Source of the DNA: Mytilus galloprovincialis
Taxonomy: Eukaryota > Mollusca > Bivalvia > Mytilida > Mytilidae
Direction of reading: 5' to 3'
Assembly: GCF_965363235.1 (NCBI RefSeq)
Contig: NC_134846.1
Location: forward strand, 59,199,121 to 59,263,120
Length of the DNA stretch: 64,000 nucleotides
The translations under genes and the position numbers were made by a program. The notes below the pieces were generated by a model. It saw only the letters and a list, made by a program, of their open reading frames with translations. It ran no database searches and was not told the DNA's origin. This document shows positions 2,956 to 51,689 of the stretch, one piece after another. Each line of letters begins with the position of its first letter. Positions within the stretch are counted from its first letter, which is position 1.

Positions 2956-3650
2956 TTTGTATACATACTTCTTCAAGTAGTCTATTAATGCTCCTGGAAT
3001 ATTCATACGTCACTGATGGAAGTCACAGACAACAGGGTATGAGGATATCAAGTTCAAGTAGCATTTCAATGAATGTATATTCTTTTTATAAATTTTAGAA
3101 TGGGAATGTGTCAAAGATGAATGAATGGCATAAAAAGTATTCAGTTTCTTAAGATCTTTTAAAGAATAAATTGTTGGCTTGTAATGAACAGCAAAAAGTT
3201 TAAAATATATTTTATTATTTTTCCTCTCTGTTTTTAATATCACCAAATTCTCTATCTTTTATATTTCCAATGATAGATTTATAAAAAGGAGTGTCGAGTA
3301 AAAAAATTATATTAAACACTGCTATACGTAAGAGTGACGGCCTGAAATCAAAAACCTAATCACTGGTTGTCTGTTTTAACATCTAGTGTTATTTGTTCTT
3401 TAATTTCAGTTTTGTAGTCTTGAAATTTATATATGGCTTGTCCTGAATCGTGACGCTTCAGAGCCTGACATATGGAATAGTAAACTGAAGATTACCTCTT
3501 ATGTTTTATTTTCTATGTGGTTTTATGAGGCTTTTCTACCTCAGGCATAGATAACCTTAGCTGTATTTGGCAAAACTTTAAGGAATTGTGATTCTCAATG
3601 CTCTTCAACTTCGTACTTTATTTGGCCTTTTTAACTTTTTTAGATTCGAG

Positions 3651-3692
3651 CGTCACTGATGAGTGTTTTGTAGACAAAATGCGCGTCTGGCG
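3651..3692 (+). ncRNA. Hammerhead ribozyme, degenerate core (array unit 1)
   Basis: CTGATGA is present and the GTC cleavage triplet is kept, but the second core box reads AAAA instead of GAAA and the closing stem II pair is weakened. Activity is unlikely. It shares these changes with the copy at 4301. Confidence 0.7.
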
Positions 3693-3975
3693 TATATACT
3701 AAATTTAGTCCTGGTATCCTCAGAAATTGATTACCTTAGATGTATTTGACAAAACTTAATACTCTTCAACTTCATACTTTATTTGACCTTTTTAACTTTT
3801 TTGGATTCGACTATTTACTGTTTACAAATTTTTTAATTTTTTTAAAATACTTAGGGTTTTCTACCTCAGGCATAGATAACCTTAGCTGTATTTGGCAAAA
3901 CTTTTATGAATTTTGGTTCTCAAAGCTCTTCAACTTCATATTTTATTTGGCCTTTTTAACTTTTTTGGATTCAAG

Positions 3976-4017
3976 CGTCACTGATGAGTCTTTTGTAGAC
4001 GAAACGCGCGTCTGGCG
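3976..4017 (+). ncRNA. Type I hammerhead ribozyme (array unit 2)
   Basis: Stem I pairs CGTCA with TGGCG (one G-U). The core CTGATGA (3981-3987) is followed by stem II GTCU/AGAC with a UUUGU loop, then GAAA at 4001-4004. A very short stem III made from palindromic ACGCGCGT leads to the GTC triplet, with predicted cleavage after 4012. All core bases needed for catalysis are there. Stem III is too short for a stable monomer, but its palindrome could pair between two molecules, as known for minimal hammerheads that cut as dimers. Confidence 0.85.
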
Positions 4018-4300
4018 TATATACTAAATTTAGTCCTGGTATCCTCAGAAATAGATTACCTTAGCTGTATTTGACAAAACTTAATGCTCTTCAACTTCAT
4101 ACTTTATTTGGCCTTTTTAACTTTTTTGGATTCGACTATTTACTGTTTACAAATTTTTGAATTTTTTTAAAATACTTAGGCTTTTCTACCTCAGGCATAG
4201 ATGACCTTAGCTGTATTTGGCAAAACTTTTATGAATTTTGGTTCTCAATGCTCTTCAACTTCGTACTTTATTTGGCCTTTTTAACTTTTTTAGATTCGAG

Positions 4301-4342
4301 CTTCACTGATGAGTGTTTTGTAGACAAAATGCGCGTCTGGCG
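4301..4342 (+). ncRNA. Hammerhead ribozyme, degenerate core (array unit 3)
   Basis: Same AAAA substitution for GAAA as unit 1, plus CTTCA in place of CGTCA in stem I. Predicted inactive. Confidence 0.7.
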
Positions 4343-4625
4343 TATATACTAAATTTAGTCCTGGTATCCTCAGAAATAGATTACCTTAGATGTATTTGAC
4401 AAAACTTAATACTCTTCAACTTCATACTTTATTTGACCTTTTTAACTTTTTTGGATTTGACTATTTACTGTTTACAAATTTTTTTATTTTTTTAAAATAC
4501 TTAGGCTTTTCTACCTCAGGCATAGATAACCTTAGCTGTATTTGGCAAAACTTTTATGAATTTTGGTTCTCAATGCTCTTCAACTTCATATTTTATTTGG
4601 CCTTTTTAACTTTTTTGGATTCAAG

Positions 4626-4667
4626 CGTCACTGATGAGTCTTTTGTAGACGAAACGCGCGTCTGACG
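4626..4667 (+). ncRNA. Type I hammerhead ribozyme (array unit 4)
   Basis: Core CTGATGA, GAAA and GTC are intact. The 3' strand of stem I is TGACG, giving five Watson-Crick pairs with CGTCA, where other copies have a G-U pair. Predicted cleavage follows 4662. Confidence 0.85.
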
Positions 4668-4950
4668 TATATACTAAATTTAGTCCTGGTATCCTCAGAA
4701 ATAGATTACCTTAGATGTATTTGACAAAACTTAATGCTCTTCAACTTCATACTTTATTTGGCCTTTTTAACTTTTTTGGATTCGACTATTTACTGTTTAC
4801 AAATATTTTAATTTTTTTAAAATACTTAGGGTTTTCTACCTCAGGCATAGATAACCTTAGCTGTATTTGGCAAAACTTTTATGAATTTTGGTTCTCAAAG
4901 CTCTTCAACTTCCTACTTTTTTTGGCCTTTTTAACTTTTTTGGATTCAAG

Positions 4951-4992
4951 CGTCACTGATGAGTCTTTTGTAGACGAAACGCGCGTCTGGCG
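4951..4992 (+). ncRNA. Type I hammerhead ribozyme (array unit 5)
   Basis: Identical in core and stems to unit 2. Predicted cleavage follows 4987. Confidence 0.85.
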
Positions 4993-5265
4993 TATATACT
5001 AAATTTAGTCCTGGTATCCTCAGAAATAGATTACCTTAGCTGTATTTGACAAAACTTAATGCTCTTCAACTTCATACTTTATTTGGCCTTTTTAACTTTT
5101 TTGGATTTGACTATTTACTGTTTACAATTTTTTAATTTTTTCAAAATACTAAGGCTTTTCTACCTCAGGCATAGATAACCTTTGGCAAAACTTTTAGGAA
5201 TTTTGGTTCTTAATGCTTTTCAACTTCATACTTTTTTTTTCCTTTTTAACTTTTTTGGATTTGAG

Positions 5266-5307
5266 CATCACTGATGAGTCTGTTGTAGACGAAATGCGCG
5301 TCTGGCG
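5266..5307 (+). ncRNA. Type I hammerhead ribozyme, variant (array unit 6)
   Basis: Core CTGATGA and GAAA are intact and stem II GTCU/AGAC is kept with a GTTGT loop. Stem I carries CATCA, which leaves one mismatch with TGGCG, and stem III has a U for C. It closes the array; predicted cleavage follows 5302. Confidence 0.75.
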
Positions 5308-5340
5308 TATATACTAAATTTTGTCTTGGTATCTATGATG

Positions 5341-6495
5341 AGTTTATTTATTGTTTTGCTGTCCCATTGACATATACACACCACGTTTCGAATTGAAAGC
5401 TCACCAGAATAACTTCTGTCACTTGATGTTTGTCAGCAACCCTTACTGTCTTTAAACTTTAACAAAAACCTCTTCTGAAACAAGTTGGCAAGTCAGGATA
5501 GAAATGAGCCTGAATTATCCTTAGAATATTTTTTTGACAATGTCTGATGATCCCAGCTACTTACTAACAAAGCCACCATGGCTTAAAATGAAAGAAAGGT
5601 GTCAAATGGAAGTATTGTCTAATATCTTGAAAATTATAACAGAAAAAGAAAATCTAGCACAATAGAAAAGTTTTCAGAAAGTCAAGATGTACCCTCTGTC
5701 CATCTGAATTAAAATAGTAGGATGATTTCTTGAGCAAATTATTTAAAATAATATAAAGATTTTTCTCATATTTTTCAAATGTTGCAGCTATCTTGAATAT
5801 ATAATAGATAAAGAAAAGAACAAAAATTAAAATAAAAGAGGATCAACTACACAAAATGTACAAATAATTAAAAATGATTGTAATTGTCAGACTCCGTTTT
5901 GCCTTTAAAGATGAATTTTGAAATGTCTTGACGAAAGAGAAAGGCAACACTTATGCATGCTGTTTGTAGCGGTGGTAGCAACAAGTTTGCGATTAGATCA
6001 GTTTTAAAGGATTCATTTATGGTAGGTCAATGATATTTGGTATGCAGTTGTATTAACATCTGTATATCTAATTTCAATCTTATTCTATATTATTTGGCCC
6101 AGCTTCCTTGAAGCAAGGTTTATTGCCTGTAACTTAATTGCTAAGTTTTGTTTGTAAATTAGTGAATGGGTCAATTTTTTTTGTAACCAATTAATACATA
6201 TTTTAGCAATTTAAATGAATAATATAGTAGACCAAGAGAAATGCACATAACCAATAACCAAGACAATTAAGAACTTCAAAGGTCAAACATGACCAAATTA
6301 TAAACTAAATGTCTTCTCATAATAGCAGTTATGATTCATTTATGCATTTTTTATCTTGAAAATATACATACCTAGATAACTAATCTAAGTCTTTATAATC
6401 ACTAACATCATATGTAAACTTACTCCCACCTTGAAACCTCTTAATTTGTTCATTTGCGAATAAAATATTAATTGTTTGGAAGAGCCTTATATGAA
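5341..6495. other. Intergenic, no gene seen
   Basis: AT-rich sequence with no supported coding region. The stretch near 6025-6120, with TCAATGATATTTGGTATGCAG, resembles one near 62490-62560 and is probably a worn dispersed repeat. Confidence 0.5.
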
Positions 6496-6589
6496 TTAAA
6501 TGCTATTTATATATGGATTTGACACATAGCATATTTGACGGACTGAGAACACATAAAAAAATAAAAGATTGAAAACAAAACTAGAACCT

Positions 6590-6990
6590 AATAAACTCAT
6601 CATAGATGCCAGGATTAAATTTTGTATGTACGGCAGACACACGTTTCTTCTTAAAAAAGACTCATCAGTGACGAATGAATCCAAAAAAGTTAAAAAGGCC
6701 AAATAAAGTACGAAGTTGAAGAGCATTAAGTTTTGTCAGATACAGCTAAGGTAATCTATTTCTGAGGTAGAAGTCCTTACTATTTCAAAAAATCAAAAAA
6801 TTTGTAAACAGTTAATTTATAAATATCAATGATAATTCATATGTCATCACAGAAGTGCTGACTACAGGGCTGGTGATAACCTCCAGGATTTAAAACTCCA
6901 CCAGCAGCTGGCATCGACCCAGTGGTTGAAAATTAATAAAATCATCATAGATATATACCAGGATTTAATTTTGTCATAAACTCATCATAG
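6590..6990 (-). repeat. Full-length retrozyme-like unit, minus strand
   Basis: Read on the minus strand from about 6990, it has the tail block found at 10440-10540 (CCACTGGGTCGATGCC, then GGTTATCACCAGCCC). This is followed by the CTCTTCAACTTCGTAC block and a hammerhead ending near 6631. It therefore joins the 5' body of the 355-nt type to a 3' half close to the 325-nt type. Near-identical flanking stretches (about 6495-6590 and 7020-7110) lie on both sides, suggesting a local duplication. Confidence 0.65.
6631..6673 (-). ncRNA. Hammerhead ribozyme, degenerate stems
   Basis: On the minus strand CTGATGA, GAAA and the GTC triplet are kept. Stem II has a mismatch next to the core and stem I has an internal mismatch. 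Activity is doubtful. Confidence 0.65.
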
Positions 6991-7113
6991 TCTAGATACC
7001 AGGATGGAAAAGCCTCTGAAGCAAATGCTATTTCTATATTGAGTTGACACATACCATATTTGAAAGACTGAGAACACATCAAAATTAAAAGTTTGAAAAC
7101 AACACTAGAATTG

Positions 7114-9754: not shown

Positions 9755-10015
9755 TGATAAATAAACTTATCATAGATACCATGACTAAATTTAGTATACG
9801 CCAGACGCGCGTATCGTCTACAAAAGACTCATCAGTGACACTTGAATCCCAAAAAGTGAAAAAGGCCAAATAAAGTACGAAGCTGAAGAGCATTGAGGAC
9901 CAAAATTCCTAAAAGTTTTGCCAAATACAGCTAAGGTAATCTATGCCTGAGGTAGAAAGGCCTTAGTATTTAAAAAAAATTAAAAAATGTGTAAACAGTA
10001 AATTTATAAATATAA
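9755..10015 (-). repeat. Single retrozyme-like unit, minus strand
   Basis: On the minus strand it reads from the CTGTTTACACATTTTTT block through CTACCTCAGGCATAG and CTCTTCAGCTTCGTAC to a hammerhead, then the tail ATCTATGATAAGTTTATT. It lacks the structured 5' body, so it is a partial unit. Confidence 0.65.
9799..9840 (-). ncRNA. Hammerhead ribozyme, mutated core
   Basis: CTGATGA, stem II and GTC are preserved, but the second core box reads GATA. Stem I pairs TGTCA with TGGCG less well than the array copies. Predicted inactive. Confidence 0.65.
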
Positions 10016-10374
10016 CAATAAATATTGTTAAATAAGTATTGTTTTTTTCATAAATAATATGATGTTTTGCGTGTTTAGCATGAAAGAAGCACAAAACAAT
10101 GCTGATTGTCATGATATATTCAGTGGTGTCACTAAACTGGTCAATGGTGTTAATTTATCAAAATGATCTCACCATTTACAGTAACACCAATGATTTAAGG
10201 TGTAATTGAAGATGAAGTTACGAAATAAGTGCTCCATTCCCCTATTCTATATGTTGGTACTGGTGCATGTTTCTACATTAAATCAATATATTTCAAAATT
10301 CAAAGTTCCTGAAATGTTTCCTCAATGCTCTTCAACTTCGTACTTGTTTGGCTTTGTAGATATTTTGATGTGAG

Positions 10375-10416
10375 CGTCACTGATGAGTCTTATGTAGACG
10401 AAACGCGTGTCTGGCG
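10375..10416 (+). ncRNA. Type I hammerhead ribozyme, left copy
   Basis: Stem I CGTCA/TGGCG, core CTGATGA, stem II GTCU/AGAC with a UAUGU loop, GAAA, short stem III (ACGCGTGT) and GTC triplet. The core is complete. Confidence 0.85.
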
Positions 10417-10729
10417 TACTAAATTATAATCCTGGTACCTTTGATAACTATTTGCACCACTGGGTCGATGCCACTGCTGGTGGACGTTTCGTCCCCGAGG
10501 TTATCACCAGCCCAGTAGTCAACACTTCGGTGTTGACATAAATATCAATAATGTGGTCATTTTTATGAATTTCCTGTTTACAAAACTATGAATTTTTCGA
10601 AAATCTAAGGATTTTCTTATCCCAGGCATAGATTACCTTAGCCGTATTTGGCACAACTTTTTGGAATTTTGGATCCTCAATGCTCTTCAACTTCGTACTT
10701 GTTTGGCTTTGTAGATATTTTGATGTGAG

Positions 10730-10771
10730 CGTCACTGATGAGTCTTATGTAGACGAAACGCGCGTCTGGCG
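10730..10771 (+). ncRNA. Type I hammerhead ribozyme, right copy
   Basis: Same stems and core as the left copy with the fully palindromic ACGCGCGT in stem III. Predicted cleavage follows 10766. Confidence 0.85.
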
Positions 10772-10800
10772 TACTAAATTATAATCCTGGTACCTTTGAT

Positions 10801-12040
10801 AACTGTGTTCAAAAAATGTAAGGGTGCACCATGGACACTATTTTCAATTATGATATAGCTTTTACTTACTTTTAAGATTTTGTCATTAAATTTCAACATA
10901 AATGTTTGTTTTCTTTTGCATAAAATGCTGACACTAGGTAACATTGCTAAGGGAGAAACTATTGCAACTGCTGAAATCTTGAGAAAGATAACTCTTATCT
11001 TACCAATTTGTCTTTTGGTTACACCATTGACTTTAAAAATGAGACTTTTCCTTTTGGTGAATTTTTTTATTATAGAACCTACATACACCTCCCAAATCAT
11101 TAAACAATGTTTGTGTATATCAAAATGCAATAAAAAGTAATAAATCCTAATAACAAATGGTATAAATAAGAGTCCTACTTTAGGTCTGAAAGTATTTGAA
11201 GTAAAAAATAACAGTTGATTCTTGCTATATCCAAGGGTTTAAGAAATCATTAAAGATGGTTTTTTTTTATAACATTTCATACTGTAAACTGTGTATAGTG
11301 TATCACAAAACATTCATATCTAACATATGCAAGTGTTATTTTGATACATTTTGATATATGTTCATGTCTTTTGACTTAAACATACCAAATAACATAGTTT
11401 TGCATATTTTTTTGATAATGACCCATATACTCCATATCGTTCGTTGTTTGACTATATTACTACCTCTCGATTATTTCAGAAACGGAAAGTTTACGATTGG
11501 AAAGCAGAAAAAAATCTCTTTTCGAAAAGTTCATTTCACAAGCGATAACTTTCTGCACACTCGCAATAGACAGGACCGATAATTGCTAATGCCTTACTGT
11601 TTATGTGTTATTAAACATTATTACAAATCAAAGGTGTCTGATTAACTGACGCATAATCAGCATTCACATTCTTATAACCAGGTAACACACATATGATGAT
11701 GTTTTGACTATCGGTTCATGAATTTTAAAAATATACGTGATATTTAACCCTTACTGCAACAAAAGATACTCTCAAGAACATAAAGAGGTTTCTTGTTTCT
11801 CATTGAACAATTCATAGAATGTATTTTTATTATTAATCAGCTAATATCAATATAAATCATTGTTTTATGTGGTGTCTTCATACTAATAAGACACTATTTT
11901 CTCATTTTCTGATTTTCCTCATCTGGCTGAGCGAACCAACTATGCAACACAATAACTGCCAGAATGATTTCAGGTTTAACATCACTTCACAAGACAACAC
12001 GACGATGCCACGATGCAACGATGGCCTTTAACATTTTAAT
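10801..12040. other. Intergenic, no gene seen
   Basis: Open frames of up to about 118 codons occur on both strands (10774-11140) but overlap each other and show no recognised domain. Nothing else is supported. Confidence 0.5.
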
Positions 12041-12044
12041 ATTC

Positions 12045-12115
12045 GTGCATCTTTTGTAAACGAAACGAGCATCTGGCGCAAATATATTTCAATCCCGGTA
12101 TCTATGATAAGTTTA
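12045..12115 (+). repeat. Worn hammerhead-element 3' end
   Basis: CTTTTGTAAACGAAAC followed by a CATCTGGCG block and a TATCTATGATAAGTTTATT tail matches the second half of the hammerhead plus the element tail. The CTGATGA box is missing, so this is a remnant. Confidence 0.6.
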
Positions 12116-12268
12116 TTAATTTGATTCTCTTTTGAAGTTGATATATAACGTAATTTGAAAGAAAATACATACCTTTTTTTAATCTATTTACCATGAATAA
12201 AAGTAGATTTACGGTTTGTATTAATTAGATAGCAACGAAACGACAAAAACTAAAAGAAATACACCTAA

Positions 12269-12913: not shown

Positions 12914-14483
12914 ATGATTTTTACACGAAAAAGCATAGCAACAATTTTATATTTACTGTTGAGTTTCATCAATGGAATTTCAACTAATAAACAAGAAAAG
13001 AAAGAGAAGTTCGAGATTTTGGATAAATTAGAATTACAGGCAAAGAAAGAACAATTTTACATTCAAAAAGAAATATCACAATTGAAGGATTTTAAGTATG
13101 AAATGCAGCAACAGTTGAGGGAGATAAAAAGTGCAAATTTATTTCTGACCAACAGAGTGGATTACCAAGAAGAAAGGATACATATACTGGAATCTATATT
13201 GCAACAGTTCAAGGGAATAGGTTGGTACATCTACATCGTTATTTTGCATATATCATTGAAAAAGCTATGGAAGAACATATGAACTTGTACGTTTAAAGGT
13301 ATCTCGTTGCAAAGAGATGACTGTAAATAGAGTTTACCATGTAATGTCTAGTTGACAGGTTGACAGCTTTCAAGATGAATACTTAAACAGTTGAACAAAT
13401 TTGGTCGTAAATAATCGAATCGGTTTTTTCATGGATCAGCACGAACGTAAATTGATTGCAATTGTTCGGAAGTTTGTTATATGGTACCTAATCTTAGGCA
13501 AGTTATTAATGCATTATATACATTATACTAGTATATTTTCCGACGAAAAAAAAATATATCAAGAAACTAATGTTCAAAGTCCTTCGAGCAAAGCGGACAC
13601 AAAAATAGATTGTTATTATACGATCACTTTAAGTAATATAACTCCCTCAGTATTTGCACATCGTTGGCTTTAGATTTTAGCATTATAACACATAATGAAG
13701 GTAAATCTATGAAAGTTGGAAAAATGAACCAATGTGTAAGTGTCAATTATATTTTACATGTTCGCAAATACCGGTATGAGGATAAAGAAAGACATCTAGT
13801 TCTGTGATTACCAAAGTAGTTACTATTGATTTTAGTTTGTCTTATCATACAGAGTATTATACACGTGCTCGATCTCCTCTGCAAATCATCAAGAAATCAC
13901 ATAAAAACATTGTGTCGACGTCCACGTCCACTACAGTCTGCATAAAACACCGAAATTATCTTATATTGCCTGTATTAATCTGAAGCCTTTTTTTAAATGA
14001 TACATAACTGTTGTCTACAACCAGTATTAATATACATTTTATCCGTTTCAAATTCCAGGGTTGAATGGAGCGACACCAGCTTTTTATGCATACATGACAA
14101 AAGATGAAAATAATCCAGGAGTTGGACACACACTGATATACGACAATGTAATTGTCAATTTTGGTAACTCATACAATCATTCAAGTGGAAGATTCACAGC
14201 TCCAACCCCAGGGTTATATATTTTTTCTTATTCAACAATTCCGTCCAGCAATTCAGATATTCCTACTGAAATTGTGAAGAATCAAGAAGTCATTGGCGCA
14301 ACCTATTCGAATAATAGATATCACTATACTTCAACCTCCTCTTCGACTGTTGTCGTTAGCATGACTGCAGGTGATGTATGCTTTGTTCGAACAAGCAAAT
14401 TCAATACTCCTAGTGGGAGTGTCTATAGCCGAAATGATGGACGAACATCGTTTTCTGGATGGCTTCAGTTTTATGTAGAATAA
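12914..14483 (+). CDS. Secreted C1q-domain-containing protein, two exons
   Basis: Exon 1 is 12914-13220 and exon 2 is 14059-14483; the intron is GT-AG and splits a Gly codon. The 243-residue product has a signal peptide (about 1-23, hydrophobic IATILYLLLSFI), a charged coiled-coil stretch (about 28-98) and one C1q domain (about 107-243). The domain shows the family pattern, including SSGRFTAPTPGLYIFSY and an FSGWLQFYV end. There is no collagen region, so it is a C1q-like rather than classical C1q protein. Bivalves carry hundreds of such genes, many acting as haemolymph recognition lectins; that role is inferred here. The start codon is chosen because it alone gives a signal peptide. The stop TAA sits inside an AATAAA (14479-14484); a second AATAAA at 14656-14661 is a likelier poly(A) signal. 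Confidence 0.88.
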
Positions 14484-20531: not shown

Positions 20532-23500
20532 CTGAAAAAATATCAAATGTCCAAATTACTCTCTTTAATTCTAATCAAGTGCTGAAAAATCTAGTTGCAA
20601 ATAATAGTATTTCATCATCTACAATTTTTTTTATCTATACTTGATGTCATTGACATACAAAAACACTTTTTGGGCCCTCATTTGAGCCAGGGGAGTGTCT
20701 TGACCCTGTCCAACCAGCAATGTTTAAATGCATGCACACAATCAAATATTCCAGAATAGTTAAAAGTTGTATCTGCACAAAATTTATTCTATACAAAGGA
20801 AACCTTTTTTCAGACATATACAAGAAATAAAGCATTTTAAATTATTTCAAATAAATATATGCCAGATAAGTACATCACAGCATTTTAAATTATTTCAAAC
20901 AAGTGAAACTGCGAGCTACTGCTCACTGATGATACCCCCGCCGCAAGTGGATAATATTAATAGTGTAAAAATATGCAAGTGTTCGGTAAACAGGAAGTTG
21001 TCGAGTGATGAATCTGAAAACGCATCACACGGTATAGCTGACTTATATAAATCCTGAAACCAAATTTCAGAAATCCTTGTATTGTAGTTCCTGAGAAAAA
21101 TGTGACGAAAATTTTCAACTTGGCTATCATGTGTAAATTCATACAAGTGTTCGGTAAACAGGAAGTTGTCGAGTGATGAATCTGAAAACGCATCACACGG
21201 TATAGCTGACTTATATAAATCCTGAAACCAAATTTCAGAAATCCTTGTATTGTAGTTCCTGAGAAAAATGTGACGAAAATTTTCAACTTGGCTATCATGT
21301 GTAAAATCAGACAAGTGTTCGGTAAACAGGAAGTTGTCAAGTGATGAATCTGAAAACGCATCACACGGTATGGCTGACATATATAAATGTTGATACCAAA
21401 TTACAGAAAGGGTGGATGTGTAGTTCCTGAGAAAAATGTGACGAAAGTTTCATGGGACGGACTGACTGACGGACGGACTGATGGACGGACTGACGGACGG
21501 ACTGACGGACTGATGGACGGACAGACAGAGGTAAAACAGTATACCCCCCCTTTTTTAAAGCGGGGGTATAATAAATATACGCCAGATAAGTACATCACAG
21601 GAAACTGATAACTACTACATATTCTTATTTTCTAATTTTTTTAAAACTTTTAAAGAAATACAACCAAACAATCAAGTTATACTTACTGTGTGAATGAAAA
21701 AAGTTTTAAAATTCTTTGCCTCTGGTCGAAGATCTTCTGACCTACAATTATATAATTAAAAGTAAATAATCTTTCACATAAGAGTTTTATGTAAAATTGT
21801 ACTGCTTCATTGTTATAATTTTTCATCAATAAATAAGCAGCATTGGATAGAAATCAAGTTTATCAAAATGATTTTCTAATACATCTGATAACCTATTTTG
21901 GGTTGAAAAAAATCTTAAAAGAAAGTTTGTAACTGTTGTAAACTGATTTTAGTAGAACCCGACAAAATAAACCAAAATTCCTCTTTTATTTCGTATTCAA
22001 TCTTTCCAAAAATCAATCAAATTCTATTCACTAACATGTTTACATCCACTTGCTTCATGTAGATTTCTAACAGCTCAAATACTGTTTAGACTAAACATAT
22101 TTCCATGAAAATATCTGTATACTGAAGCAGTCAATTCTTTTTATATAGAAAGCTGCCGATTCTAAATAACATATAAAAATCTTTTAGTCTCTGTTAAAAA
22201 TGAATGCTAAGTTTCAAAGTAACAATTGGAAAATCTTTGTTATGGACTTTAATGCATAAATTTCCTCAAGTCAATCAAGCATCAGATAACCAAAATAGTC
22301 CCCAATTGTTTTGCAATGCATTATAAATAAATTGTAGCAAATTATTGATATATTTCAAAGGAAACCTTAATTATAGACCTAAGTGAAGACAGAAGTAAAA
22401 TTGTTTTAGCATGAGCTGTATGTTAGAATAAACTTGCAGTGAACAAAAAACAAGTTCATGCGTTCTTTACATTCATGTTAGTTTATAGAAAATACTAACC
22501 ATGGAATTTGTCCCTTTAAAACTTTATTAGCCGGATCAACATAATATAAATGTGGTCCCTCTGTTAATAATAGCATACGTCTTCTTGCAAATAAACCCTG
22601 GAAGAGAAATAAATAACACATGACAATCTTATTTGCTATGTACTGAAATGTCAAAAATCAAAGCTAATCCAAAATCAAATGATTACGTTTAATAGCATAC
22701 ATATAGTATCGTTTACTCTTATTTTTATCTCATACATATAGCTGCTAGATAGAACGAAGACGCCTTTAGTGTGAATTATAAGTTATCATTTATTAATCTT
22801 GCCTTAAGCAAATGATTTTTAAATTAGTTTTTTTACATACAACACAATTTATCAATACTATCTTATATACCTTACCGGGTAAATTTAAAATGCAAAGAAA
22901 TTATGTTTTTATGCTGTTTTTACACTCTGGCAATTGATTTACATTTTTCATTCAATAATTTTTCAAGCATTTGGAAAATACTTTCCATTAAGAGCAGTTT
23001 ATTTTATTTGAAGTGTATTATTGTCTTCTATCTACAATACCTTTCTTTTATCCACTAGACCCTGTTTCAGAATAAGGTTGTCTTCCACAAATTTGTGATA
23101 TTCATTATTTTTCTTTTGATCCTCTAATCTTTTGTTTCTTTCATCTTCAGTTATACTCCTTTTAAAAGTAAGTAAATCAATATCATTTTGAGAATCAAAA
23201 CGAAACTTAAAAGTACAATAATACAAAAAAGCAAGTAAAGGATTCTTTTTAATTATGGTATCATAAAATCTTTACCTAGAGTCACAAAATTTTGATAAAA
23301 AGTGAATGCAAAATGCGAGTTCTGTGCTGCCTACAGGCCTTTTTCCAAAGTATTATGGAGTAAACCGTAACCTAAGATGACTGATTGACATATTTCCATT
23401 ATGCTATTAGATGACCTTAAGTAGAAACCTTGAATTTAAACATGCTTAATCCTGATAAAAACCAACTGCATCTTGTTAGGTGGAGTCTAGAACTCTAGCA

Positions 23501-26500: not shown

Positions 26501-29500
26501 ATATAACCTAAAAGTTCATCTAACTCATGCTAGATGGATGTTCATGTCCAGTGGCAAATTAAATACACATTCAGAACAAGAACATTATAATGTAATATGA
26601 ATATTAACCCAATTTGTTCTAAATCAACACACTGAGCAAGATTTTTAGTGTGCTAGTTCACATGGTAACAGTGCACAGGAAGACATGTCATCATACAAAG
26701 AAACAATATTCTGACTACGGGCCGACAAGTATTTGATCTTACTCCTTGATGAAGACAAAAGATAAGATTATCAATATGACTTAAAATTGGTGTTAAACCT
26801 TGAAATAATCATCTAAATATACTGGTTCATTTCAATTAAATGATAGTACTCACCCTCCTCTGAATGGTGGTAGTCCAGACAATAACTGATAAATAATACA
26901 ACCTAAAGCCCACAAGTCTGAACTGAAAAAAAAAGACATATAAAAGAAATTAGATAACATATGTCAATAAATTGCTTCGCTGAGCGCAGCTGGATACAAT
27001 TGCAGCTGGATACAATCGCAGCTGGATACAATCGCAGCTGGATTCTATCGCAGAAGTCCAACCCTGAACAGTTTGGGCAAAAATGTACGCAATATTTGTG
27101 CTTGATACAGTTCTGAATTTGGATTGTAATTAATTATTTGACACACAATGGGTTTCTGACACAGAAGAACTGTAAAGAACTTAAAATTGGTTATATAATT
27201 TGAATTTGTATATTTTTTGCTGTTGAGCAAAACACTATGCTGTTGCAAATTGACCCCCCCCCCCCCCAAAAAAAAAAAAAGGTTAACTTCCCCTTTTTTG
27301 CAATACTCTATGATGTTGCGAATTGACCACCACCCTAACCCACCTATACTATAAAAAAATATGTGTACCACCCTTTTTTGCTTTTTAGCAAGCACTATGC
27401 TGTTGCCTATTGTCTGGTTACTAAATGCGTCTTGGGACGACAACAACAACCCAGACAAAATAGACGACGACAACATGATAGCAATATATGACAGTCGTAT
27501 TAAAATCAAAAATGCAATTAAATAAGAAATGTTATACCAATTGACTCTACATTGAATAATATATTCAAACTTGTTTCTCCACATACATATATTATATATA
27601 TTATCAGAGTTTTAAAGTTTAAACTTTGCTAGTTATACTAACCTACTGCAGACTTGTTTACTGGTGAGAACTTCTGGAGACACATACTGGGCAGTTCCAA
27701 CAAAAGAATTCTTTCTCCGTTGTGTATGGTGTTCTGAAAACAGAAAAAAGAATCTATAATTATAACAATTGCTTAGTCAACTGTTCAGAGTTTTAAGGTT
27801 GTTATTACGAAGAAAAAAGCGACAGGATTGGATTAACAAAATTAAAAAGCCATTTTAAATTTGAAAGCAAAATATTCTTCAAAATTCCTGTGATCACAAT
27901 TATCAATCATGCATTTTTGGCAAATTGTTCAATAATTGCAATAACAAATAAACACAATTTTCTAAATATAGAGCACACTGATCATCATTGAAATTTATGT
28001 TGAAAGACAATATCATAGTTTGATTACAGGTATCACATTATCTTGGCATTGTCAATGATTCATGAATATAAGGTCAGGTCAAAAGAACCTTGCCAGAAAA
28101 ACATGTACACATTACAATCAATCACACACAAAATAAACTTAACCTGTTGCTAATAGAATTTGAGAAACAATAACTAATTACGAAAACTAAACATTGACCA
28201 TGAAAATGACATAAAGGTCAAAGGTTCCTAACAGACAAACATGTACACATTACAATCAATCACACACCAAATATAGTTGACCTGTTGCTAATAGAATCTG
28301 AGAAACAATACCTAATTACGAAAACTAAACATTGACCATGAAAATGACATAAAGGTCAAAGGTTCCTAACAGACAAACATGTACACATTACAATCAATCA
28401 CACACCAAATATAGTTGACCTGTTGCTAATAGAATCTGAGAAACAATAACTAATTATGAAAACTAAACGTTGACCATGAAAATATCATAAAGGTCATAGG
28501 ATTGTAACAGACAAACATGTACACATACACATCATTCCATACATCAAATTCAGTTAACCTATTGCTTACAGTATTTGAGAAATGGACCTAACGATAGAAA
28601 CGTTTTGTTGAACACTGATCCATGATATCAGGTTATGGTCTGGTGAACCCAGTCTGTAGAATATGTTTCAACCAAATATAAAACTGGATAAAACAACAGT
28701 GTATACACTGAAATGACTGCTTAAATAATCATGTTTTAATTTTATGTTAAAAGTCTTTAAGATTAAGATTCTACTAAAGATACCACTTAAACTCATTTGA
28801 AAATAATGCCGATGAAAACTAGAGGCTCTAAAGAGCCTGTGTCGCTCACCTTGGTCTATGTGAATATTAAAGGAAGCAGATGGATTCATGACAAAATTGT
28901 GTTTTGGTGATGGTGATGTGTTTGTACATCTTACTTTACTGAACATTCTTGCTGCTTAAAATTATCTCTATCTATAATGAACTTGGCCCATTAGTTTCAG
29001 TGGAAAATGTTAGTAAAAATTTACAAATTTTATGAAAATTGTTAAAAATTGACTATAAAGAACAATAACTCCTAAGGGGGTCAATTGACCATTTCGGTCA
29101 TGTTGACTTATTTGTAAATCTTACTTTGCTGAACATTATTGTTGTTAACAGTTTATCTCTATCAATAATAATATTCAAGATAATGACCAAAAACAGCAAA
29201 ATTTACTTAAAACTAACAATTCAGGGTCAGCAACCCAACAACGGGTTGTCTGATTCATCTAAAAATTTCAGAGCAGATAAATGTTGACCTGATAAACAAT
29301 TTTACCCCATGTCAGATTTGCTCTAAATGCTTTGGTTTTTGGGTTATAAGCCAAAAACTGCATTTTACCCCATGTTCTATTTTTAGCCATGGCGGCCATC
29401 TTGGTTGGATGGCCGGGTCACCGGACACATTTTTCAAACAACTAACCCAAAAGATGATTGTGGGCAAGTTTGGATTAATTTGGCCAAGTAGTTTCAGAGA

Positions 29501-32500
29501 AGATTTTTGTAAAAGATTACTAAGATTTACGAAAAATGGTTAAAAATTGACTATAAAGGGTAATAACTCCTAAAGGGGTAAACTGACCATTTCAGTCATG
29601 TTAACTTATTTGTAAATCTTACTTTGGTGAACATTATTGCTGTTTATAGTTTATCTATATCTATAAAAATATTCAAGATAATAACCAAAAAGAGCAAAAT
29701 TTCCTTAAAATAACTAATTCAGGGCCAGCAACCCAACAACGGGTTGTCCGATTCATCTGAAAATTTCAGAGCAGATAAATGTTGACCTGATAAACAATTT
29801 TAACCCCATGTCAGATTTGCTCTAAATGCTTTGGGTTTTGAGTTATAAGCCAAAAACTGCATTTTACCCCATGTTCTATTTTTAGCCATGGCGGCCATCT
29901 TGGTTGGATGGCCGGGTCACCGGACACATTTTTCAAACAACTAACCCAAAAGATGATTGTGGGCAAGTTTGGATTAATTTGGCAAAGTAGTTTCAGAGAA
30001 GATTTTTGTAAAAGATTACTAAGATTTACGAAAAATGGTTAAAAATTGACTATAAAGGGCAATAACTCCTAAAGGGGTAAACTGACCATTTCAGTCATGT
30101 TGACTTATTTGTAAATCTTACTTTGGTGAACATTATTGCTGTTTACTGTTTATCTCTATCTATAATAATATTCAAGATAATAACCAAAAACAGCAAAATT
30201 TCCTTAAAATTACTAATTCAGGGGCAGCAACCCAACAACAGGTTATCCGATTCATCTGAAAATTTCAGGGCAGATAGATCTTCACCTGTTTAACAATTCT
30301 ACCCCATATCAGATTTGCTCTAAATGCTTTGGTTTTTGACTTATAAGCCAAAAACTGCATTTTACCCCTATGTTCTATTTTTAGCCATGGCGGCCATCTT
30401 GGATGGTTGGCCAGGTCACCAGACACATTTTTTAAACTAGATACCCCAATGATGATTGTGGCCAAGTTTGGTTTAATTTGGCCCAGTAGTTTCAGAGGAG
30501 AAGATTTATGTAAAAGTTAACGACGACGGACGACAGCGACGCCGGACGACAGCGACGCCGAACGCCAAGTGATGAGAAAAGCTCACTTGGCCTTTTAGGC
30601 AAGGTGAGCTAAAGATAAGTTCATTAATCAATTAAGCATAATACAGATGAAAAGTTTTTTTTGCTGTGGATACTTTCTCTTGATCAGAAATATAAAATAA
30701 GTTTTGACAAGTTATCGATATCTATACAAAATTTGTTTCAGAATCAATCTTATTGCGATTATGACAACAGAATAACAACATCAATACACTGATATGGGAG
30801 GGTTACATAGTTTGTTATACAACTTATTACCACCTGAGGCCTCCATCAAAGAAAAGAATTCATCTAGTTTAAAAAAAAATACATTAAGTATTTGGCATAC
30901 ATTAATATAACAGTAAAAACTATAAGGTTCAATACAACTGCATAAAATGTTATGAAGAAATAACAAGTGTGCACACGCTGAAATGTCTGGCCTTCTTTAC
31001 TAATCATTGATATTATATTGATAGTCCTAAATATAAAGCTTTATTACAACTGTCACATAAACTTAGCATTGACCAATGAACCATAAAAATGAGGTCAAAG
31101 TCAGATGAACCATGCCAGGCAGGCATGTACAGCTAAAAATTCTTCCATACAACAATTATAGTCGACCTATTGCTTACATTTAAGAAAAACAGACCAAAAC
31201 ACAAAAACTTAACACTGTGCAATGAACCGTGAAAAGGAGGTCAAGGTCAAATAAAACCTGCGCGACTGACAAATAGATCATAAAATATTTCCATACACTA
31301 AATATAGTTGACCTATTGCATATAGCAGTGTTCTCCCCAGGACGTTTTAGTGCTGTGCTATCACAATTTCCCGCTGTTCTATTGCACTGACTGCAGCGCT
31401 GTCCAAGGCAAACACGTCGCTATATTTTTTTTTCGTATTTTTTTCAAATTTCCCATTTATTTTTCACTTCGGATCACATGATCGACTGGTTTACTATTTC
31501 TGAATGAATTATTACCGTTTTATTAAGTAACTCTGCAGGACCAGTCTAAGATTTACAAAATGGCGACATTGAAAGATCAAAATAAACAAAGATTTCAACA
31601 TTGACATCTATTTTGTTAGTTAAAAGAATGTAAAGAGGCATCTATGAATGAAATGAGATGAAATAAATTGATCACATTTCCCGACGACACTCACAAACTT
31701 GTTTTACGACCTTTGAACAAACGATGATTTTAAAAAGAATCAAACACAGTGGTTTGTTACACTCGCCGGGTTTACTATAAATACGAACCCCGAAAATGAG
31801 CAAGTTTTTGAAGTATTAATTATCAGCTATTGGAACAAGTGAAACTGCGAGCTACTGCTCACTGATGATACCCCCGCCGCAAGTGGATAATATTAATAGT
31901 GTAAAAATATGAAAGTGTTCGGTAAACAGGAAGTTGTCGAGTGATGAATCTGAAAACGCATCACACGGTATAGATGACTTATATAAATCCTGAAACCAAA
32001 TTTCAGAAATCCTTGTATTGTAGTTCCTGAGAAAAATGTGACGAAAATTTTCAACTTGGCTATCATGTGTAAAATCAAACAAGTGTTCGGTAAACAGGAA
32101 GTTGTCAAGTGATGAATCTGAAAACGCATCACACATTATGGCTGACATATATAAATGTTGATACCAAATTACAGAAAGGGTGGATGTGTAGTTCCTGAGA
32201 AAAATATGACGAAAGTTTCATGGGACGGACTGACTGACGGACGGACTGATGGACGGACTGATGGACGGACGGACGGACAGACAGAGGTAAAACAGTATAC
32301 CCCCCCTTTTTTAAAGCGGGGGTATAACTAACAATTGTTTAGTAAGCAATTCTACAGTAATGAATTTACCATTTGAAAACAATTGAGAGGATGTGATTAG
32401 AAAAACAAACCCCAAGCTGATACGACTTGAGAAATTCACTTTCTCGATGTCCAGCTGGGATGAAGCCATTTGAATATTATAAAACGTTAAGGTCAGAAAA

Positions 32501-47328: not shown

Positions 47329-50138
47329 AGCTCACCTGTCCCGAAGGGACAAGTGAGCTTATGCCATCACTTGGCGTCCGTCGTCCGTCGTCGTCTGTCG
47401 TCGTAAACTATTTCAAGAATCTTCTCCTCTGAAACTACTGGGCCAAATACTTTCAAACTTTAACTGAATGTTCCTTAGGGTATCTTATTTATAAATTGTA
47501 TCCGAAGTTTTGATCTATCAACAAACATGGTCGCCATTGCTAAAAATAGAACATAGGGGTCAAATGCAGTTTTTGGCTTATAACTCATAAACCAAAGCAT
47601 TTAGAGCAAATCTGACAGGGGTAATATTGTTTATCAGGTCAAGATCTATCTGCCCTGAAATTTTCAGATGAATCAGACAACCCGTTGTTGGGTTGCTGCC
47701 CCTGAATTGGTAATTTTAAAGAAATTTTGCTGTTTTTGGTTATTATCTTGAATATTATTATAGAAAGAGATAAACTGTAAACAGGAATAATGTTCAGCAA
47801 AGTAAGATTTACAAATAAGTCAACATGACGGAAATGGTCAGTTGACCCCTTTAGGAGTTATTGCCCTTTATAGTCAATTTTTAACCATTTTTCGTAAATC
47901 TTAGTAATCTTTTACAAAAATCTTCTCTGAAACTACTGGGCCAAATACTTCCAAACTATAATTGAATGTTCCTTAGGGTATCTAGTTTGTAAATTGTATC
48001 CGAAGTTATGATCTATCAACAAACATGGTCGCCATTGCTAAAAATAGAACATAGGGGTCAAATGCAGTTTTTGGCTTATAACTCAAAAACCAAAGCATTT
48101 AGAGCAAATCTAACATGGGGTAATATTGTTTATCAGGTCAAGATCTATCTACCCTGAAATTTTCAGATGAATCAGACAACCTGTTGTTGGGTTGCTGCCC
48201 CTGAATTGGTAATTTTAAGGAAATTTTGCTGTTTTTGGTTATTATCTTGAATATTATTATAGATCGAGATAAACTGTAAACAGGAATAATGTTCAGCAAA
48301 GTAAGATTTACAAATAAGTCAACACTACGGAAATGGTCAGTTGACCCCTTTAGGAGTTATTGCCCTTTATAGTCAATTTTTAACCATTTTTCATAAATCT
48401 TAGTAATCTTTTACAAAAATCTTCTCCTCTGAAACTACTGGGCCAAATACTTCCAAACTTTAACTGAATGTTCCTTAGGGTATCTAGTTTGTAAATTGTA
48501 TCAGAAGTTGTGATCTAATATGAGGCAGGCATTACCTGTAAATGGGGACGAAGTCTGTATGAATTATTTTTTTGTAACTTAAATATTTGTTTTAAAAAAA
48601 AGAAACGGAAATACCGTAACGTTTCCGATTTTGGTTCTGTTGTTAGGGATTTAGTTGTGACGTTATTTAAATTATGACGTCATATGCAATGTAAACAAAG
48701 AAACGCTATCATCAGGTAACGTTTTTTCATATCAAGGAATTATTAAAAATGAAATTGGTATTGCGCGTTCCTTCCTATTTTATACTAGACTGATAAATAT
48801 ATATTTTACTCAAAGTTTCATACAAACAAGACCAGAAAAAGGAAGTACATTGTACATTTCTGCGCAGGTCCGGGATTTCAAAACACGACAAAAAAAAATT
48901 GAACGATTTTGAGTTCATTAGTACAATGAAAAATTCGGGAAATTTTCCCGTATTTTTTTTTTATTGAATTTTCTACCGTTATTAGGGACTCCGTCCCCAT
49001 ATCAACAAACATGGTCGCCATTGCTAAAAATAGAACATAAGGGTCAAATGCAGTTTTTGGCTTATAACTCAAAAACCAAAGCATTTAGAGCAAATCTGAC
49101 ATGGGATGTTATTGTTTATCAGGTCAAGATCTATCTGCCCTGAAATTTTCAGATGAATCAGACAACCTGTTGTTGGGTTACTGCCCCTGAATTTGTAATT
49201 TTAAAGAAACTTTGCTGTTTTTGGTTATTATCTTGAATATTATTTTAGATAGAGATAAACTGTAAACAGCAATAATGCTCAGCAAAGTAAGATTTACAAA
49301 TAAGTCAACATGACGGAAATGGTCAGTTGACCCCTTTAGGAGTTATAGCCCTTCATAGTCAATTTTTAACCATTTTTCGTAAATCTTAGTAATCTTTTAC
49401 AAAAATCTTCTCCTCTGAAACTACTGGGCCAAATACTTCCAAACTTTAACTGAATCTAGTTTGTAAATTGTATCCGAAGTTATGATCTATCAACAAACAT
49501 GGTCGCCATTGCTAAAAATAGAACATAGGGGTCAAATGCAGTTTTTGGCTTATTACTCAAAAACCAAAGCATTTAGAGCAAATCTGAGGTAGGTAATATT
49601 GTTTATCAGGTCAAGATCTATCTGCCCTGAAATTTTCAGATGAATCAGACAACCTGTTGTTGGGTTGCTGCCCCTTGAATATAATTATAGATAGAAATAA
49701 ACTGTAAACAGCAATAATGTTCAGCAAAGCAAGATCTTCAATTAAGTCAAATTGACCAAAATTGTCAATTGACCCCTTCAGGAGTTATTGCCCTTTAAAG
49801 ACTTTTTTCACAATTTGTTCATCATGTTGATTTACTTTAAAAAATCTTCTCCTTTGAAACTGCTGTATCAATTTCAGCCAAACTTCATTGAACTTAGGCT
49901 AAATGAGTTTCAGAGTATCTAGTATAAATTTTATATTTTATTTCCTTGTATGTCAAGAAACATAGCTCCTATGGCTAAAATAGAACATAGGAGAAAATGA
50001 TTATTTTTTTTTGGCTTTTGAAGAAAATAGGACGATCCAAAAACATTTAAATAAATTGAAAAGCCAAAATAATCATTGATGAGAGATTTAACCAAAAGAA
50101 TTAAGGTGAGCGATTCAGGCTCTTGAGAGCCTCTTGTT
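47329..50138. mobile_element. CTCACC-ended element with 498-bp tandem units, copy 2
   Basis: Begins with a hairpin of AGCTCAC and GTGAGCT around TGTCCCGAAGGGACA, then a GTCCGTCGTC run. Ends with AAGGTGAGCG and an AGGCTC/GAGCCT hairpin. Units containing AACATGGTCGCCATTGC recur at about 47523, 48021, 49008 and 49495. Opposite orientation to copy 1 and interrupted at 48519. Confidence 0.7.
48519..48992. mobile_element. Element of about 475 bp nested in copy 2, TA target
   Basis: Interrupts the unit exactly between GATCTA and TCAACAAAC; the TA at the junction is present on both sides. Near the ends are ATGGGGACG and its inverse CGTCCCCAT. No coding sequence. Class unclear; TA duplication is compatible with Tc1/mariner-like MITEs. 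Confidence 0.6.
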
Positions 50139-50575
50139 TTATAAGTTAACCCTGATTTTTTTTAACATAAATCTGTTTCTCAGATACTATAAGCAATAAG
50201 CTAACAATATTTTCTGTATGGTATGATTTTCCAAAGCCAGAACCTGCCATCCAGTGGTTTTTGCTGGTCACAGTTTGCCATATATATGTATCTTTTTTAT
50301 ACATGTATTGTATAAATGTAGACATTCGTTTTCTCTTTTTATTTTATTCACATTTAGTCACCAGGAGAATTTAAAGTGGGTTTGATGATTTCCTAAATTG
50401 GATATCTGCTTATTTAAAATAAGATTTCTAAATCTGATTTGATTTTTTTTCAGTTGTTTTTGTCACAATATATAAAAAGGACTAGAAAGAACTTACCATG
50501 ACTGGACACAGTTCCCTCATAAAAGTAAGAAAATTAATGTTTGCTCCACTTTACTATTAACTATGAATTTATTAT

Positions 50576-51208
50576 TATACCCCCGCTTTAAAAAAGGGGG
50601 GGTATACTGTTTTACCTCTTGTCTGTCTGTCCGTCCGTCAGTCAGTCCGTCCCATGAAACTTTCGTCACATTTTTCTCAGGAACTACACATCCACCCTTT
50701 CTGTAATTTGGTATCAACATTTATATATGTCAGCCATACCGTGTGATGCGTTTTCAGATTCATCACTTGACAACTTCCTGTTTACCGAACACTTGTCTGA
50801 TTTTACACATGATAGCCAAGTTCAAAATTTTCGTCACATTTTTCTCAGGAACTTCAATACAAGGATTTCTGAAATTTGGTTTCAGGATTTATATAAGTCA
50901 GCTATACCGTGTGATGCGTTTTCAGATTCATCACTCGACAACTTCCTGTTTACCGAACACTTGTATGATTTTACACATGATAACCAAGTTGAAAATTTTC
51001 GTCACATTTTTCTCAGGAACTACAATACAAGGATTTCTGAAATTTGGTTTCAGGATTTATATAAGTCAGCTATACCGTGTGATGCGTTTTCAGATTCATC
51101 ACTCGACAACTTCCTGTTTACCGAACACTTGCATATTTTTACACTATTAATATTATCCACTTGCGGCGGGGGTATCATCAGTGAGCAGTAGCTCGCAGTT
51201 TCACTTGT
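50576..51208 (+). mobile_element. Pearl/Helentron-like element, copy C (633 bp)
   Basis: Plus-strand orientation of the same family as 20899 and 31835: TATACCCCCGC hairpin end, short CTGTCCGT run, three 168-bp units, and an ACTTGT end. Confidence 0.75.
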
Positions 51209-51689
51209 TTAGTAATGATGACAATGTTTTTATTAATGCCAAAAATGCAACAGTATCAGGTTTGAAATTATAAAATCTTGCATTCTTAATTACATCTCAG
51301 TTTGTCAACTATTTTGTTACCCTACCCACTAGTTGGTCCAGCTTCTTCAAATTAATGAGGAATGTAGCTGACCATCAGATTGTCTTTTTCTGTATTTTAT
51401 GCAGAGAGGTGAGACATACCGTATATCTGTGTAAATAGTTTATTTAAAATTGAAATTTAGTATTTTTAATGAAAATGATGAAATTGATGTATATTTTAGT
51501 ATATTTAACCATTGATCAATGTACAATAAAAAATATTAGAAACTGTTTATTTGCGTGTGAATGAGATAAATTTTGAACTATTAGTAAATGAGAGTCATTA
51601 TCTTCCTAGGTTTTATATCTTTAATAATAAGGATGACTGATACCTGAAATGTATATATACACAGTACATAAGTAAATGATTAGTTATCT

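Follow-up and report, generated by a model that had tools for sequence, protein, structure and literature searches.

A retrozyme-derived array of type I hammerheads with a patchwork unit in the genome of Mytilus galloprovincialis

Results

A tandem array of six hammerheads

The stretch of DNA analyzed here comprises 64,000 nucleotides of the mussel Mytilus galloprovincialis (contig NC_134846.1, positions 59,199,121 to 59,263,120; henceforth the window, to which all counts of arrays, elements and relatives refer) and carries a tandem array of hammerhead ribozymes, array A. Tandem Repeats Finder (TRF) places the repeat at 3528-5333, with a period of 325 bp, 5.6 copies and 94% matches. The motif CTGATGA occurs at 3656, 3981, 4306, 4631, 4956 and 5271: four steps of 325 bp followed by one of 315 bp, the shorter step being due to a 9-bp deletion in the sixth unit (u6) and the absence of one T from the fifth (u5). 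Positions and repeat call both agree with an earlier note on this DNA, made by a model from the letters alone, which had reported six motifs at these steps. Pairwise identity among u1 to u5 ranges from 93.8% to 98.2% (97.8% for u2 and u5), and the GC content of three pieces of the array is 0.31-0.32, against 0.40 in the related element D described below.

Array A carries six type I hammerheads: three intact, one weakened and two broken (Table 1). In u2, u4 and u5 stem I has six pairs, stem II four, and stem III two closed by a tetraloop; every position of each stem is paired, wobbles counted. CTGATGA is present at all six sites, as is the GTC triplet, and GAAA at four (u2, u4, u5 and u6), which bears out the claim that four copies keep all three motifs. 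Position names (G12, C17) and the cleavage rule follow textbook usage.

A scan with the Rfam type I hammerhead model, proposed in the earlier note as a check, gave significant expectation values (E) for u2, u4 and u5, with all scores below the gathering score. When 2.1 kb were searched, these three gave full-length alignments to the model, with E between 5.9e-6 and 1.1e-5, and u6 a weaker match; in a search of the 64 kb, E for these three was 1.8e-4 to 3.4e-4 and for u6 0.13, while u1 and u3 were unlisted. A strict home-made descriptor that specifies the core and the three stems matches the window at five sites, namely u2, u4 and u5 of the array and, in element D, 10380 and 10735. On 100 dinucleotide shuffles of the window the same descriptor returned a mean of 0.02 sites, with a maximum of one.

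The non-adjacent u1 and u3 have in common 7 of the 28 variable columns, including the changes that kill their ribozymes; two of the changes common to them resemble, by eye, CpG decay. Private changes number eight in u6, none of which is the state found in element C, and zero to three in the other units.

A patchwork unit

Each full unit of array A is composed of a 230-bp ribozyme-bearing part and a 95-bp part that lacks a ribozyme, hereafter the filler. The two parts have different relatives. The ribozyme-bearing part of u2 to u5 (four units compared) is 91.1-92.4% identical to element C, the closest match in the window, whereas all five fillers are 93.3-97.8% identical over 89 nt to element B (6677-6767, minus strand) and carry the 18-19-nt internal gap that distinguishes B from C and D. 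The possibility that the filler is a duplicate of the ribozyme half of its own unit, as the earlier note had it, was considered and rejected: set against the ribozyme part of a single unit, u2, the fillers are 88.4-93.0% identical over 86 nt, with 24 gap positions, and the filler of u2 itself matches B at 97.8% over 89 nt as opposed to 93.0% over 86 nt for the ribozyme half beside it. B is the closer relative, and its internal gap is present. The filler is thus a segment joined in from another retrozyme subfamily, that of element B, as judged from these sequence comparisons.

Table 1. Coordinates of array A, its hammerheads, fillers and tail, and of related elements in the window
Feature	Position	Strand	Basis or remark
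Array A: 325-bp unit in 5.6 copies, with a 15-nt tail at the end	3528-5348	+	TRF; tail end computed
u1 hammerhead, broken: A in place of catalytic G12, mismatch in stem II	3650-3693	+	Position check; absent from Rfam matches
u2 hammerhead, intact; predicted cleavage after 4012	3975-4018	+	Rfam 32.5 bits; position check
u3 hammerhead, broken as u1, plus stem I mismatch	4300-4343	+	Position check; absent from Rfam matches
u4 hammerhead, intact; predicted cleavage after 4662	4625-4668	+	Rfam 33.3 bits; position check
u5 hammerhead, intact; predicted cleavage after 4987	4950-4993	+	Rfam 32.5 bits; position check
u6 hammerhead, core intact, stem I mismatch, stem III wobble; possible cleavage after 5302	5265-5308	+	Rfam 24.7 bits
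u1 filler	3719-3813	+	93.3% to B over 89 nt
u2 filler	4044-4138	+	97.8% to B over 89 nt
u3 filler	4369-4463	+	94.4% to B over 89 nt
u4 filler	4694-4788	+	96.6% to B over 89 nt
u5 filler	5019-5113	+	97.8% to B over 89 nt
Terminal tail, absent from repeat unit; last 12 nt match the ends of B, C and E	5334-5348	+	End comparison
Element B, degenerate retrozyme copy from the subfamily to which the filler belongs; contains a portion of the stem-loop module	6590-6968	-	5′ boundary approximate
Element C, 5′-truncated single copy, core broken	9760-10016	-	Nearest match in the window for A's ribozyme half
Element D, dimer with 355-bp spacing, two intact hammerheads (10374-10417, 10729-10772)	10319-10804	+	Rfam 29.4 and 33.0 bits
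Stem-loop module of D, 128 bp	10441-10568	+	Match search in window
Element E, 3′ fragment that ends in the shared motif	12050-12117	+	BLAST; end-motif comparison

Relatives, ends and coding potential

BLAST of the array against the window, together with Rfam, identified four relatives within 7 kb of array A (elements B to E, Table 1). Element D is made up of two 138-bp copies 355 bp apart. It also carries a stem-loop module that is found elsewhere in the window only in B (6926-6840, 86% over 87 nt); a match search returned none in array A or element C. Rfam E in the 64-kb search is 1.8e-4 to 3.5e-3 for the five intact hammerheads (three in A and two in D), none of which attains the gathering score. 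Element B is flanked by direct repeats of about 110 bp (6492-6586 and 7017-7110, 525 bp apart; 83.6% over 110 nt, 87.6% over 89 nt), judged by eye to lie near its ends, which may be a long target duplication or may reflect insertion between tandem copies. Exact-pattern scans for the hammerhead core in viral-contig and genome-contig collections returned no stretches, and a literature text search with an 18-nt piece of the motif returned no match.

Between 3500 and 5400 the tail motif of array A occurs once, at 5334, and never inside the units. Counted from the (former) cleavage site, the shared 3′ end motif lies at 46 nt in A and B and at 44 nt in C and E; D ends at 38 nt. The 5′ starts are scattered: in the coordinates of D's unit they fall at 197 (A), 45 (B), 145 (C), 332 (E) and 263 (first copy of D). 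Target-primed reverse transcription typically leaves copies that share a fixed 3′ end and are truncated to different extents at the 5′ end, and the common 3′ ends and scattered 5′ starts seen here are the pattern that would be expected from such a process. Penelope-like elements, for which internal initiation of reverse transcription leaving such tails has been described (PMC11167929), have been proposed as a strong candidate helper for animal retrozymes (PMC7229834).

The window has 28 frames that reach 90 amino acids (aa); a Pfam scan (E up to 0.01) of 10 of these, all located outside array A, returned no reverse transcriptase or GIY-YIG endonuclease domain. Stop-to-stop frames within array A are at most 95 aa long and recur with the unit. 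No long direct repeat flanks array A, no dedicated search having been made for a long terminal repeat (LTR), a primer-binding site or a polypurine tract.

Predicted cleavage products

A plus-strand transcript of array A should be cut in u2, u4 and u5, and perhaps in u6 (positions in Table 1). The internal pieces released would be of 650 nt, 325 nt and perhaps 315 nt: the intact u4-u5 pair yields the one predicted piece of exactly 325 nt. This amends the expectation of the earlier note that the transcript would be cut into 325-nt pieces throughout; with u1 and u3 dead and u6 weak, a mixture of lengths is predicted. For one retrozyme of the mussel, the published account gives slow self-cleavage, with kobs of about 0.1 per min, and circularization of about 30% with RtcB ligase as against about 1% unaided (PMC7229834).

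Discussion

Origin of array A

We consider that array A is probably a chimeric non-LTR retrozyme insertion that was subsequently expanded locally, in DNA. The ancestor would have been a retrozyme of the metazoan non-LTR type, its founder a chimera in which a ribozyme segment related to C was joined to a ribozyme-less segment of about 95 bp related to B, and which was without the stem-loop module of D's 355-bp unit. This founder would have been inserted as a 5′-truncated piece bearing the family's usual tail at its end. Unequal exchange in DNA could then have amplified the 325-bp segment lying between homologous ribozyme parts, duplicating in the process ribozymes that were already broken. If the plus strand is transcribed, u2, u4, u5 and perhaps u6 should self-cleave to give RNAs of 650, 325 and possibly 315 nt, which a host ligase could circularize.

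Descent from such a retrozyme, and a chimeric founder, are supported by the intact hammerheads of u2, u4 and u5, by the presence nearby of D with its 355-bp spacing, by the resemblance of the fillers to B and of the ribozyme-bearing parts to C, and by the pattern of the ends. Growth in the DNA is favored by two observations. The tail motif is present once, at the end of the array, so that simple copying of a 325-nt circle does not account for array A. Given this and the changes common to the two dead copies, the reading that fits best, if not conclusively, is that a chimeric insertion grew in place by amplification of its DNA. Homogenization of hammerhead satellites by unequal exchange has possibly been described before, the pDo500 satellite of cave crickets (PMC2808323) being a candidate.

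A number of results weigh against this explanation. No Rfam match attains the gathering score of 34 (the best is 33.3 bits). Short target-site duplications are at chance level, with equally good matches in 195 (A), 204 (B), 78 (C) and 209 (D) of 1000 random pairs, and there is no long target-site duplication at A, C or D, long direct repeats being found beside B only; element boundaries in both the duplication and the flanking-repeat tests were placed by hand. The published description of retrozymes treats target-site duplication as optional (‘when present’; PMC7229834). As to the growth of the array, one variable column unites u3 with u5, in conflict with the grouping of u1 and u3. The private changes in u6 weakly suggest an edge copy that escaped exchange: the argument is weak because u6 clusters with u1 and u3 and is not basal in the tree of units (supports 0.73-0.91), and because it is about as distant from the other units (90.7-91.8% identity, over the region common to all six) as is C (91.0-93.1%). 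It may be that u6 is a separate, older copy.

The predicted circles of array A also speak against it. Retrozyme circles are described as highly self-paired (PMC7229834). Folded at 18 C and compared with shuffles (60 each for the 325-nt and 315-nt pieces and for D, 25 for the 650-nt piece), the predicted circles of array A are no more structured than shuffled sequences, with z of +2.42 (650 nt), +0.70 (325 nt) and +0.95 (315 nt). Since D, a relative of standard size, fails too – its predicted fold is no lower in energy than shuffles (z +0.12) – we take the measure to be uninformative and non-excluding.

Alternative explanations

The most serious alternative, and one that we regard as possible if somewhat doubtful, is that array A is an inert, satellite-like relic, in which ribozymes were inherited and no RNA processing takes place at present. 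On the question of origin it is compatible with insertion followed by local expansion. In keeping with a relic, the array has two dead ribozymes and a weak one among its six, and a catalytic position (column 149) is among the variable columns. Against this stand the three ribozymes that retain the core and every stem pair, and a change in u4 that converts a U.G pair of stem I to U-A.

A direct rolling-circle complementary DNA (cDNA) copy of an RNA circle, either of 325 nt or of 650 nt carrying a live ribozyme and a dead one, would make expansion in DNA unnecessary. The published model of retrozymes derives tandem cDNA from circles in just this way (PMC7229834), and the order of u1 to u4 – dead, live, dead, live – is what a 650-nt circle would give. 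The alternation is broken, however, by u5, which is live and close to u2; the unit is without the terminal tail; and u6 has diverged beyond the differences found among u1 to u5. We think such an origin unlikely.

A currently mobile retrozyme with a 325-nt circle as its transposition intermediate, a reading in line with the earlier note, fares less well. The size of the unit and its low GC content (0.32) fit, as does the exact 325-nt piece predicted from u4 and u5; yet the stem-loop module that D has, and B has in part, is missing from array A, the tail is absent from the unit, and the window contains a single array of the 325-bp unit. It is in our view decidedly improbable. We give slightly less credence to a more elaborate idea, in which decay of every second hammerhead sets the size of the circle, 650-nt circles that each hold a working and a dead ribozyme spread the alternation by rolling reverse transcription, and array A, with its patchwork unit devoid of the module, represents a distinct retrozyme lineage evolving by recombination among subfamilies.

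Finally, tandem type I hammerheads occur in Penelope-like elements (PMC7761336) and tandem repeats in bivalve Helentron elements (PMC7492417), but it is very improbable that array A is the pseudo-LTR remnant of an autonomous Penelope-like element or the central repeats of a Helentron-type transposon: its frames are short and repeat with the unit, the 10 frames scanned in the window contain no reverse transcriptase, a stem III of two pairs with a tetraloop is the form ascribed to invertebrate retrozymes (PMC7229834), and TRF reports no GACGGACT-type microsatellite next to the array, whereas it does so for two of the window's three 168-bp arrays.

Comparison with known systems

In the mussel about 5000 hammerheads have been reported, usually in repeats of about 350-390 bp, with heterogeneous circles and a monomer obtained from the construct DRtz_Mg353 (PMC7229834). 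The view that array A has the genomic form of retrozymes, known from the mussel, is upheld by this account: type I hammerheads in a low-GC tandem of about 325 bp fit it. Set beside the Mytilus galloprovincialis non-LTR retrozymes of Cervera and de la Pena (2020) by description only, element D, at 355 bp, fits the published size. Array A, compared in the same manner, differs in being a 325-bp patchwork that is without D's module, that mixes live and dead ribozymes and that has apparently been expanded in place.

Metazoan non-LTR retrozymes are characterized by an intact type I hammerhead, by head-to-tail repeats of about 150-450 bp in dimers to multimers, by a GC content below 45-50% and by highly self-paired circular RNA. 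The first is found in three of six copies in A and in both copies in D; the second in 5.6 copies of 325 bp in A and in the 355-bp repeat of D; and the third in both. The fourth is absent from the predicted folds of A and D. A frame encoding reverse transcriptase plus GIY-YIG endonuclease, which would define a Penelope-like element, is absent from the 10 scanned frames.

Two further systems resemble array A in part. The hammerhead repeats of axolotl and newt are tandem units of about 330 bp with type I hammerheads, but in axolotl class 1 stem III has, on the published count, one pair and a palindromic tetraloop (PMC7229834), compared with two pairs and a tetraloop here on our own count. PAc of Anolis, a Penelope-like element, is likewise tandem with a hammerhead, and its insertions terminate at internal positions, which delimit a tail comparable to the shared 3′ ends described above; it encodes a reverse transcriptase with an endonuclease (PMC11167929), a frame not seen in array A.

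On this basis we are justified in classing array A as a retrozyme-derived array; the label ‘active retrozyme’ is not justified. Array A is a local, in part decayed, representative of a family of mobile elements known from mussels and other animals, and its patchwork unit is unusual; the general picture of what retrozymes are is unchanged by it. If the proposed origin is true, it would point to a route from a retrozyme insertion to a small satellite array, in which dead ribozymes are multiplied too: recombination between subfamilies gives a hybrid, the hybrid is inserted with the 3′ end typical of the family, and the stretch separating its ribozyme copies is then amplified. It would also caution against reading the size of the circles directly from the distance between hammerhead motifs in a genome.

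Other features of the window

Three copies of an element with 168-bp tandem repeats, 93-95% identical to each other, lie at 20897-21574, 31834-32327 and 50572-51210 (minus strand). TRF places a GACGGACT-type microsatellite after the 168-bp arrays that start at 20976 and 31913. The element resembles the non-autonomous Helentron elements of bivalves. Two arrays with a period of 499 bp (28983-30516 and 47423-48517) have consensus units that are, by eye, apparently related in opposite orientation. An open reading frame at 14031-14483 contains a C1q domain (Pfam E 3.5e-23), and a sub-threshold Rfam match to sraA is located at 48922-49012 on the minus strand (44.2 bits against a cut-off of 56, E 0.0013).
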